Below are positions 45,954 to 49,230 of a stretch of 64,000 bases of DNA, piece by piece. The position numbers and the translations under genes are program-made. Each line of letters starts with the position of its first letter. The stretch's first letter is position 1. The notes beneath the pieces were generated by a model, which was not told the DNA's origin, ran no database searches, and worked only from the letters and a program-made list of their open reading frames with translations. The stretch lies in the NCBI RefSeq assembly GCF_008087665.1, contig NZ_CP042912.1:5642001-5706000 (forward strand), in the 5' to 3' direction. This DNA comes from Mariniblastus fucicola. GTDB lineage: Bacteria > Planctomycetota > Planctomycetia > Pirellulales > Pirellulaceae.

Positions 45954-46027
45954 GTGGCTGTAGCTCAATTGGTTAGAGTACTGGATTGTGATTCCAGGGG
46001 TTGTGGGTTCAAGTCCCATCAGCCACC
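45954..46027 (+). tRNA. tRNA-His (anticodon GTG)
   Basis: The cloverleaf is complete: acceptor GTGGCTG pairs with CAGCCAC, the D-loop has AGCTCAATTGGTTAGAG, the anticodon stem CTGGA/TCCAG surrounds TTGTGAT with anticodon GTG, and the T-loop is GGTTCAAGTCC. G at 45953 opposite C73 (46027) gives the extra G-1:C73 pair that is the identity element of tRNA-His. CCA is not encoded. Confidence 0.95.
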
Positions 46028-46076
46028 CTTCTTTTTCCCGCGGTTCCGCAAACCGCGTCATTGCCTGGCCGCGGCC

Positions 46077-46757
46077 TTAGTCGCCGATGAAGTCGAGGCA
46101 TTCCTCCGGTTCGCTGCGAAGTCGATGGTCGGCGTGGACGGATGCGAATCGAATCTCTCCGCCGCGACCGATCACAAAACGCGACGGCATCGGCAGATCC
46201 CAATGGTCGGTTCCGTTGGTTTCCGGTAGCTCCAACCCGAGCGATCTTTCGGCTTCGATTACATCCGGAGGCGTTGAAACGGTCAGGCCAAAGCTGGTCG
46301 CGATCTGATTGTTGACGTCCTGCAGAACTGGAAACCCGAGTCCCAGTTCTTTCGTGATCGACTGATTGAAATGTTGAAGCTGAGGACAAAAGGCAATCAG
46401 AGCCGCACCGCGGTCGAGAATGGTTTGAAGATTCGACTGCAGAGCTTCCAGCTCCACGATGCAGTACGGTCACCAATTGCCGCGAAACCAGGTCAAAACC
46501 AATCCGCTTTCGCCCATCAAGTCTCCAAGCGAGCAATTCCGTCCGGCAATCTGCTGCGACAACGGCGCCGCGTCACCGACTTTGAGCGCTTGATCGGCGA
46601 CGCCCGAGGCAACCATTCGTTCGACATGCGCGTTGAGAACCTGCACGATCTCAGGTGGAGTCGTGCCATTCTCAAACGCGTGTCGAATCTCGGACAAACG
46701 CGAAGCAAGGTTCTCCGTCATCGATTGGGAATCTTTGTCGCCTGCCATAAACGTCAT
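46077..46757 (-). CDS. Peroxiredoxin-like protein, candidate selenoprotein (in-frame TGA)
   Basis: Two open stretches in the same frame, divided only by TGA at 46470-46472, together give a normal protein of 226 residues in the peroxiredoxin-like FRGxWCPYC family. The family motif reads LVLTWFRGNW, then TGA, then PYCIVELEAL. The TGA thus sits exactly at the peroxidatic Cys (residue 96) and the CxxC partner Cys99 is kept. Downstream, LGLGFPVLQDVNNQIATSFGL and LPMPSRFVIGRGGEIRF are fully normal, with no frameshift or other stop. A hairpin at 46437-46464 resembles a bacterial SECIS. If Sec is inserted, this is a thiol/selenol peroxidase. The start could also be ATG 46748 or 46721. It begins 16 bp after the heme-protein gene. 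The alternative is a pseudogene with one nonsense mutation. Confidence 0.82.
46437..46464 (-). promoter_or_regulatory. SECIS-like hairpin after in-frame TGA
   Basis: On the minus strand, an outer 5-bp stem CTGCA/TGCAG and an inner 5-bp stem GAGCT/AGCTC close a GGA loop, with a five-nt bulge (TCGTG) on the 5' side. The hairpin starts 5 nt after the TGA and its loop begins 20 nt after it, with G at the first two loop positions. This agrees with the known form of bacterial SECIS elements. Confidence 0.7.
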
Positions 46758-46773: not shown

Positions 46774-49230
46774 CTATTTGACCGATCGCATCCACGCGAT
46801 CAGGTCCAGGATGTCATCACGAGTCATCGTGTCGAGAAGCCCCTGCGGCATCGGTGAGGTCGCCGACGGTTTCATGGCTTCGATTTCGGCAACGTTGATT
46901 TTCACCATACGATCAGGATTGATCATATCTGGCTGGACGTGATATTGACCTCCGGCGAGATTCACAACACGCCCCGTGACGGTTCGGCCGTCTTCCATCG
47001 CAAAAATGGTGGCTTCGTACTGATCAGAAATCGACTTGCTCGGATCGACAAGCGTCTCGATAAGGTCACGAGTCGCGAATCGGTTTCCGGCTGCCGTCAA
47101 ATCCGGGCCAACGATGCCGCCCTGCCCTGCCATGCGATGGCATTTGTAGCAACTGCCGACGCCAAACATCTTCTTTCCGTTGGCCAAATCACGTGACTTC
47201 AAATCGTCATCTGTGATCGGCATCAAGTTATCGACTGTCCAATCGTTGACTTTGTCACGTGCCTTGAGATCGGCGTAGGGATCAATGCTGACGGGCTTCT
47301 TCGCCAGCAATTCAGCCAATTCGCCCTTCGTTGCCTCAGGCATGTTTCTGATTGCGAGATCGCGAACGCTTTTCACGTATCCGCCGAACGAATGCCCGCC
47401 CAGAAACTCGGTCGCACCCAAAAACCAGTTGAAATACTTCTCACGAGCCTCATTCGTCCAGCCAGATTTTGCAACAGCGAGATGCCACGCGTAGGCGACT
47501 TGCTCCTCCTGAGTATCTGCCGCGAGCAACAGGTCCAGAGTCTGGGGAACGGCCGATTCGACGTTTGCGGCGATAAGGATTTTTGAAAGTTCACGATCAA
47601 GGTCAGCATCACCGCTTGGAAACTCTGAACTGAGACTGTTCACGGCGGCAACTGCCGAAGGAAGCTGGTATTGAGACCGAATCATCATCAAACCGTAGAC
47701 TCGAAGCAGCGCCAAGCGTTGCGACTTGCTCAAGTCGTTCCACGCGAGGCGATCGAGGGCTTTGACAGCGATTTCGCGAAACCCGTTGTCCCGTCCGCAT
47801 CGTGCAACGGCAAGTGCTCCTTCGAGCAAAGCGTTGGGCCGCGTTTCGTCGCCGATTTTTGAAATCCATTTCTCTGGAGCCTGATGCTCAAGGCCGATTC
47901 GAGACGCAAAACGAATGTGCCGATCGGAGTGACCAAGATTCTCCCACAGCATGTCGACCGATACAGACGAGCCTTCGACATGAGACTCTTCAAGTTCACG
48001 ACGAAGTTTGACAAGCTCTCCCGGTTCGACTTTCGCATCTACCGCAGCGGTTGATTCGCTGCCGGTGTACGAGATTTCATAAAGAGCTGACTGACTTCGT
48101 CGGCCGCCAATCAGAAAGTACATTTTTCCGTTGACCGGATTGATCGTCACGTCGGTCACAGGAAGCGCGTTGGAACTGCAGAATACTTCTTTGGTCGCCG
48201 TCCACGAAGCGCCAGCGGGTTCCAGCTTCAAAGCGTAAATTTTCCCGTAGCTCCAATCCGAAATGAACAGAGCATTCTGATACTTGGCCGGGAACTTTGC
48301 TCCGGTCCCGAACGTGATTCCTGTTGGGCTGCCGACTCCAACTTCGTGAACTGGAGGCAAGCTGTCGGGATAGTATTTGGGCCATTTTCCGCTGCCGTTT
48401 CGCCAGCCGAATTCGCCGCCACTGACGACGTGACAGACTCGCGTCGGACGATACCAGGGCGATCCAACATCCCACTCCATGTCGGCATCGTAAGTGAATA
48501 GCTCGCCATTGGGAGCAAACGCGATGTCGTATTCATTGCGGAATCCGGCGCAAACCAGTTCGAATGACTTGCCTTCGGGATCCGTTTTGCAAACCCAACC
48601 GGCCGGAGCCATCTTGTCATTCGCGTGGCCACCCGGATCAGGCAGTCGCTCGATCAACTGGTCTTCTCCCCAATGGCGTGGCGGACGGGATGTCTCAGGT
48701 TTCGGAATTTTGGTCATGTTTCCGGCACAGATGTACAACGACTGCTTGTCCGGGCTGAGAATCACAGCATGCGGCCCGTGCTCGCTGCCGCCATCGAACT
48801 CTCGAAGCATTGTGACTTCGTCGTACTGGTCGTCGCCGTTGGTATCCTGGCAGCGAAACAGCCCCGGCGGCATGTTGTCACCACGATGCGACACGACGTA
48901 GAGGCTGTCGAAAGCACAGAGCAGTCCCTGAGCGCGGCCAATCTTTGCCGTCAGTTTCTCGACTTTCGCTTCGCCATCCCCGGTGGCCGGAGTGATCCGA
49001 TACAGTCCGCCATACTGCGAGGACGTGATCAAACGCCCTTGAGGATCAGTCGTGATCGAAACCCAGGAGCCCTGCTGTTCGACGGGTACGCCGTAGACGA
49101 CCTTGGCCGAAAAACCATCGGGCAGTGTCAGTTTCTGGGGAATGCCGCGGTCCTGAGCGACGACATTGGTTGCGGCGATTGCCAAAACCGCAATGGATGC
49201 GAAACGTATCAACGACTTAAAAACTTGCAC
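46774..49230 (-). CDS. PVC-type heme-binding secreted protein with propeller domain
   Basis: The 818-aa protein has a signal peptide (hydrophobic IRFASIAVLAIAATNVVA). A beta-propeller of the membrane-bound dehydrogenase/glucose-sorbosone type (about 30-400) shows PPGLFRCQDTNGD and GFRNEYDIAFAPNGELFTYD. A helical repeat region follows (about 420-640). The C-terminal cytochrome domain (about 680-818) has the heme motif CYKCH near residue 690, then GIVGPDLTAAGNRF, LIETLVDPSKSIS and the VEIEAMKPSATSPMPQGL-like end. This is the planctomycete/verrucomicrobial secreted heme family, thought to be redox or sugar oxidation proteins. It probably heads an operon with the peroxiredoxin. Confidence 0.88.
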   Translation of the reverse strand: MQVFKSLIRFASIAVLAIAATNVVAQDRGIPQKLTLPDGFSAKVVYGVPVEQQGSWVSITTDPQGRLITSSQYGGLYRITPATGDGEAKVEKLTAKIGRAQGLLCAFDSLYVVSHRGDNMPPGLFRCQDTNGDDQYDEVTMLREFDGGSEHGPHAVILSPDKQSLYICAGNMTKIPKPETSRPPRHWGEDQLIERLPDPGGHANDKMAPAGWVCKTDPEGKSFELVCAGFRNEYDIAFAPNGELFTYDADMEWDVGSPWYRPTRVCHVVSGGEFGWRNGSGKWPKYYPDSLPPVHEVGVGSPTGITFGTGAKFPAKYQNALFISDWSYGKIYALKLEPAGASWTATKEVFCSSNALPVTDVTINPVNGKMYFLIGGRRSQSALYEISYTGSESTAAVDAKVEPGELVKLRRELEESHVEGSSVSVDMLWENLGHSDRHIRFASRIGLEHQAPEKWISKIGDETRPNALLEGALAVARCGRDNGFREIAVKALDRLAWNDLSKSQRLALLRVYGLMMIRSQYQLPSAVAAVNSLSSEFPSGDADLDRELSKILIAANVESAVPQTLDLLLAADTQEEQVAYAWHLAVAKSGWTNEAREKYFNWFLGATEFLGGHSFGGYVKSVRDLAIRNMPEATKGELAELLAKKPVSIDPYADLKARDKVNDWTVDNLMPITDDDLKSRDLANGKKMFGVGSCYKCHRMAGQGGIVGPDLTAAGNRFATRDLIETLVDPSKSISDQYEATIFAMEDGRTVTGRVVNLAGGQYHVQPDMINPDRMVKINVAEIEAMKPSATSPMPQGLLDTMTRDDILDLIAWMRSVK

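Follow-up and report, generated by a model that had tools for sequence, protein, structure and literature searches.

Peroxiredoxin-like (Prx-like) selenoproteins with a UxxC active site, where U is selenocysteine (Sec), are listed in several reports (PMC1794560, PMC1088965, PMC2398784, PMC9312934, PMC13188914), and the Sec-decoding planctomycetes P1 and P2 are described as having a full Sec-insertion gene set and stress-related selenoproteins, with fdhA and fmdB named (PMC4807772). For predicted recoded proteins, a tabulated set of homologs includes a Pirellula sp. peroxiredoxin (PMC1242214). Our literature search found no paper joining peroxiredoxin-like selenoproteins with Planctomycetota, and a search for strings of the WUPYC type gave nothing relevant among the matches listed. 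Here we describe a gene of Mariniblastus fucicola (Planctomycetota; Pirellulaceae) located in a 64,000-nucleotide stretch of contig NZ_CP042912.1 (positions 5,642,001 to 5,706,000, assembly GCF_008087665.1), which was analysed as a whole and is called the window. The gene (window positions 46757..46077, minus strand) very probably encodes a Prx-like selenoprotein in which an in-frame TGA is read as Sec, because the genome carries the Sec-decoding set, the TGA stands at the catalytic Cys column in this gene and in its syntenic ortholog, and the hairpin that follows is under selection as RNA. Both the UxxC Prx-like family and the use of Sec by planctomycetes are already published, and the gene is an added member.

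Read from the ATG at 46757, the frame spans 226 codons, holds a single TGA at residue 96 (46472-46470) and meets no further stop before the terminal TAA (46079-46077). The surrounding sequence is LTWFRGNW-U-PYCIVELEAL, and the TGA occupies the first position of a UxxC motif (U96-P-Y-C99, in FRGNWUPYC) whose second position, Cys99, lies at 46463-46461; both positions come from translation of the frame and alignment with the family. An initial annotation made from the sequence alone had reported a TGA between FRGNW and PYC, and it is found there, on the minus strand. The range given at that time, 46437-46757, falls within the gene but runs only from its 5' end to where the hairpin stops, and no strand was given. 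The protein matches the AhpC-TSA profile (PF00578; 60 bits, cut-off 26) and the Redoxin profile (40.3 bits, cut-off 26.6). By domain and motif the gene is assigned to the Prx-like thiol:disulfide oxidoreductase selenoprotein family (PF00578, UxxC), which is probably the 'Prx-like 1' family of the Global Ocean Sampling (GOS) survey (PMC2398784, PMC9312934, PMC13188914). It shares with the described UxxC proteins the AhpC/TSA domain, the UxxC motif and a hairpin of the selenocysteine insertion sequence (SECIS) type after the UGA, but is only 26-40% identical to the 32 Sec homologs aligned here. The model for SelL-related redox protein (NF040769) is matched by 31 of 33 aligned family members at E <= 0.001, whereas the window protein has no match at that threshold, the model being perhaps too narrow; another TGA-bearing gene of the genome, L208, exceeds the model's cut-off (154.7 bits, cut-off 120). 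A later ATG at 46721 (residue 13) is the only start common to the gene and its same-genus ortholog and may therefore be the true start, giving 214 amino acids.

The Sec machinery was searched for in the window's own assembly, a single contig of 6.57 Mb. The genome contains tRNA-Sec (selC; 70.1 bits, cut-off 47; anticodon TCA by ARAGORN), SelA (555.4 bits, cut-off 267.9), SelB with its C-terminal winged helix (355.7 bits, cut-off 242.25) and SelD (265.1 bits, cut-off 125). The initial annotation had held that a lack of selA, selB, selC and selD would speak against Sec; all four are present, each over its cut-off, and a complete Sec-insertion gene set is likewise described for planctomycetes P1 and P2 (PMC4807772). 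The SelD of this genome (L069:355-2547, plus strand) is a 730-aa protein in which SelD follows a fused pyridine-nucleotide oxidoreductase domain, and it has no in-frame TGA; Ndh-SelD fusions are described in PMC2398784. If UGA were reassigned or generally read through in this organism, for example as Trp, the frame would equally stay open past the TGA. This explanation is extremely improbable: UGA serves as a stop here, as it ends 12 of the 38 long stop-to-stop frames without overlap in the window (frames taken mechanically rather than from curated genes); the TGA stands on a Cys column and is preceded by a TGG Trp codon; and the genome has a SelB-type system, with a conserved hairpin downstream of the TGA.

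Orthologs were sought in 28 genomes of the genus, source genome included; 23 of the 28 had a match, and among 35 listed rows 24 hold one TGA and the others no stop. The ortholog in genome G317 (L226) is 65% identical to the window protein and has the TGA at the same codon, with the frame open on both sides. The upstream neighbours at the two loci are 80% identical over 351 aa (one small open reading frame lies between), and the locus is thus syntenic. No Cys form of the genus exceeds 37% identity to the window protein, and the nearest relative found carries the TGA and the apical hairpin rather than the Cys codon that the initial annotation had named as contrary evidence. A chance nonsense mutation of the active-site Cys codon, leaving a pseudogene, would take one substitution (TGC to TGA), and the genome holds two stop-free Cys paralogs; yet the TGA is kept in L226 although, over the 124 codons that follow it, 64 third positions differ while 87 residues are identical. 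By the Nei-Gojobori method (NG86), nonsynonymous (dN) and synonymous (dS) divergence after the TGA are 0.23 and 1.71; before it, dN is 0.44 and dS is not computable. The part of the gene after the TGA, which the initial annotation had rightly called intact, is under purifying selection. Had codon 96 been TGC, just one of the 73 single-base routes to nonsense in the open reading frame would fall there. With the Sec machinery, the other TGA-bearing redox genes of the genome and the selection on synonymous sites of the hairpin described below, a pseudogene is very unlikely, and a functional selenoprotein gene is the preferred reading.

In the order (296 genomes), Cys forms with YRGGWCPYC or a similar motif are the best homologs, at about 30-38% identity, and they include the two paralogs of the source genome (L065 and L066). 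Fourteen TGA-flagged loci of the order were fetched and ten were placed by tblastn alignment, with the TGA at column 96 in eight and at column 99 in L061, and with L051 a frameshifted Cys form; L055, L059, L062 and L064 gave no tblastn row. L061 (genome G073) belongs to the Bcp-type peroxiredoxins and has its TGA at the codon of the peroxidatic Cys (FTGGU), so that the order also contains a TxxU form; L051 (G050:C290) is a Cys homolog of the family split over two frames by a frameshift or an assembly error. At E <= 1e-12 there were matches in 40 of 392 genomes of the phylum, with one TGA in 16 of the 50 rows listed. Neither TAA nor TAG occurs inside a homolog in any listed row of the order, genus or phylum searches. 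A pattern allowing TGA or TAA gave five matches over the 296 order genomes, all with TGA; one of them (G035) comes from a genome for which no tRNA-Sec is listed, falls outside the stricter motif RGxxWUP[FY]C and may be a chance match. A scan of GTDB for this stricter motif, with a pattern that demanded TGA, returned at least 119 stretches, and the 123 motif-bearing loci (119 plus four order-pattern matches, the window gene included) all align by blastp with the window protein (weakest E = 0.001), about a dozen of them cut by the locus end. Their record titles name Acidobacteria, Desulfobacterales, alpha-, beta- and gammaproteobacteria, Chloroflexi, Planctomycetota and others. A scan of genome contigs with six peptide patterns of the window protein found no relative, one of the patterns holding the active-site Cys and being unmatchable by TGA forms.

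Of 106 loci that align strongly across the site, 57 have TGA and 48 have Cys at column 96; the remaining one, a frameshifted row with GCC, was dropped from the comparison. The TGA loci came from the TGA-requiring pattern (38), from a TGA flag (L053) and from TGA-blind searches (18), and the 48 Cys relatives with CxxC were fetched with no motif requirement. The UxxC columns are invariant in the 33-row alignment, by construction for the 32 rows obtained with the motif-demanding pattern. An error of sequencing or assembly could in principle explain the TGA, as Cys versus stop hangs on a single base. It is a negligible prospect, since the same TGA is present in the second genome, G317, and in homologs of other phyla, and tRNA-Sec is found in 10 of 11 order genomes with a TGA-flagged match among those listed (TGA position checked in part of them) versus 75 of 296 overall; the exception, G073, is 80% complete.

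The hairpin is of the bacterial SECIS (bSECIS) type and lies inside the coding sequence (46464..46437, minus strand), where it was identified by folding and by conservation in the family. The TGA is followed by CCGTA and then by CTGCA-TCGTG-GAGCT-GGA-AGCTC-TGCAG, which pairs as a lower stem (46464-46460/46441-46437), a 5-nt bulge on the 5' side, an apical stem (46454-46450/46446-46442) and a GGA loop (46449-46447). The minimum free energy (MFE) is -14.0 kcal/mol in this structure, and the two 5-bp stems and GGA loop starting 5 nt past the TGA are as first reported. The bSECIS model in Fig. 2A of PMC13188914 has a loop of 3-9 nt, a stem of 4-16 bp, G in the first two loop positions, a distance of 16-37 nt from the UGA and MFE <= -7.5; the window hairpin agrees with it in its 3-nt GGA loop, 5-bp stem, distance of 20 nt and energy. 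The apical stem and its GGA loop are both retained in L226 (-13.3 in a constrained fold). Between the two genes the third positions of hairpin codons 98-107 are identical in 10 of 10 cases, compared with 77 of 199 elsewhere (Fisher p = 1.1e-4; codons 96, 97 and 108 omitted, and codons 98-107 picked with the alignment in view). This ten-codon run is the longest of its kind in the gene, and a run as long arose in 64 of 5000 permutations.

In the family, 51 of the 57 Sec loci and 18 of the 48 Cys loci have a hairpin that fits the model at -10 kcal/mol or better (Mann-Whitney p = 5e-7), and the complete 5-bp apical helix occurs in 21 of 57 distinct Sec sequences (window included) versus none of 47 distinct Cys sequences. 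Of 56 distinct Sec relatives, 40 have the core GAGCTG(G/T)nnGCT at an unchanged offset, and none of 47 Cys relatives does, a contrast that is partly at the protein level because residue 102 is Glu in Sec forms and mostly Gln in Cys forms. A codon test free of this Glu/Gln effect was made on 38 GTDB Sec genes, for which the fetching pattern had stopped short of codons 102 and 105. The Glu102 codon is GAG in 32 of 32 cases versus 279 of 524 elsewhere in these genes (p = 4e-9), and the Ala105 codon is GCT in 30 of 36 versus 83 of 816 other Ala codons there (p = 1.2e-22). This codon bias shows that the RNA itself is under selection and that the hairpin is functional.

For a quick tree (40 of 103 inner branches open), the active-site Cys was masked wherever it occurred in WCP.C. 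This tree places the window gene and its ortholog in a group of 47 rows, 44 of them Sec (both included) and three Cys, with a Shimodaira-Hasegawa-like approximate likelihood ratio test (SH-aLRT) support of 89; the surplus of Sec rows in the tree is partly due to the mode of fetching. The Cys paralogs of the same genome, L065 and L066, are placed away from this group. The Sec label needs 11 changes on the tree versus 35.2 in shuffles, and at least five of them are forced by well-supported branches, which implies several switches between Sec and Cys. Two Cys forms from the genus (L227, L228) stand inside the Sec group, one Sec form from it (L230) stands inside the Cys group, and same-phylum rows interleave with a named Phycisphaerae row. 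L128, on a contig titled as a Klebsiella pneumoniae metagenome-assembled genome (MAG), is a Sec form grouping with a Gammaproteobacteria MAG row, L172 (support 87), and the pair is placed among alpha- and gammaproteobacterial rows; for L128, a binning or labelling error is possible.

Several observations weigh against a selenoprotein or weaken its support. As a single fold the window hairpin is unexceptional and counts for little (z = -1.27): equally good folds arise in 19 of 200 dinucleotide shuffles, and 5 of 200 codon shuffles reach its energy under a SECIS-like rule. The lower stem is paired in 200 of 235 cells of Cys relatives versus 220 of 285 of Sec relatives; it is at least as well paired in the Cys forms, and therefore only the apical part is specific to Sec. 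In L226 the best unconstrained 50-nt fold retains the apical hairpin, and the lower part pairs otherwise. L226 is also the single close ortholog, no other match above 37% identity being among those listed in the 27 other genus genomes. The homologs are related, so the p-values are inexact and overstate independence, although the effect is large. Sec is dispensable in the Prx-like family, given the three Cys rows within the Sec group. It is thus conservation, not the fold of one sequence, that carries the case for a selenoprotein; the initial argument that position, frame and hairpin together favour Sec over chance nonsense stands as a combination, while its hairpin component is weak when taken alone.

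For translation of the Prx-like gene, SelB on the hairpin would bring Sec-tRNA to the UGA and the ribosome would read on, giving a peroxiredoxin-fold protein of 226 (or 214) residues. The placement of Sec at the peroxidatic Cys, as initially annotated, was not borne out. Peroxidatic residues of the AhpC-type proteins of the source genome (TPVC; L194, L195) and of the Bcp homolog L061 (TxxU) fall on column 99 rather than 96, and the Thr column of true peroxiredoxins (TxxC) aligns with residue 96 of the window protein; Sec96 takes the place of the first Cys of CxxC, and Cys99 sits at the peroxidatic position. A TxxU-type peroxiredoxin such as PrxU, with Sec as the peroxidatic residue, shares with this protein the peroxiredoxin fold and a Sec in the active-site loop. 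That identity is unlikely here, as the window Sec lies three residues earlier, at the Thr or first-Cys position, and the protein departs from PxxxTxxC/U in having Sec at 96 and Cys at 99. The U96-P-Y-C99 active site would stand at the start of helix 97-108. By analogy with the first Cys in thioredoxin-like CxxC, Sec96 is likely to be the attacking residue, resolved through a selenenylsulfide with Cys99, and the enzyme would be a thiol-dependent reductase or peroxidase of hydroperoxides or disulfides. On a more speculative view, which is less likely than not, the family would carry one near-verbatim SECIS across many phyla, and gene and SECIS would behave as a portable Sec cassette. Both, with the core GAGCTG(G/T)nnGCT at fixed distance from the UGA, would have moved between lineages, and Sec and Cys would toggle, as they do within one genus, whenever the single UGA and the codons of the hairpin are lost or gained.

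The source genome has at least five candidate selenoproteins by sequence, the window gene included. An AhpC-TSA search gave 29 matches, of which four (window gene included) hold a single TGA, and no other stop lies inside any of the 29. L205:631-1959 (plus strand) and L212:1288-1905 (plus strand) are ResA/TlpA-like with the TGA at the first Cys of CxxC (GDWUGPC and GDWUPSC, respectively), and L208:1279-1851 (minus strand), the NF040769 match, has its TGA in HLGULAC. L224:133-2901 (minus strand; contig about 3928420-3931188) is a molybdopterin enzyme identified as formate dehydrogenase alpha (TIGR01591; 807 bits, cut-off 666.25) with an in-frame TGA in HQCAATUHAPTVAG, which we take to be the classical Sec site of formate dehydrogenase. 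Analysis of the downstream hairpins of these four candidates consisted of folding. fmdB (TIGR03129) was considered as a second selenoprotein and rejected; its best match is below cut-off and has no stop, and the TGA-bearing match is FdhA. Upstream of the Prx-like gene is an 818-aa heme-binding CxxCH protein of the Planctomycetes-Verrucomicrobia-Chlamydiae (PVC) type (46774..49230, minus strand), identified by profile matches, whose gene ends 17 nt before the first ATG; TIGR02603 is matched over its cut-off and TIGR02604 (Pirellula/Verrucomicrobium N-terminal domain) below its cut-off. A tRNA-His gene (45954-46028, plus strand) is located just 3' of the Prx-like gene on the opposite strand.

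The finding is sound and useful for annotation, and will be unsurprising to specialists. Gene-calling software for which TGA is nothing but a stop would end the Prx-like gene at codon 96 or give it a late start, and the protein would then be missed or labelled a pseudogene. The gene adds a well-supported selenoprotein to a lineage in which we found few described, in a genome with at least five candidates. If Sec does act at the Thr position of a peroxiredoxin fold, this would be a peroxidase chemistry distinct from that of TxxU peroxiredoxins. The conserved hairpin and the within-genus switches between Sec and Cys make this family well suited to studying the retention and loss of Sec.
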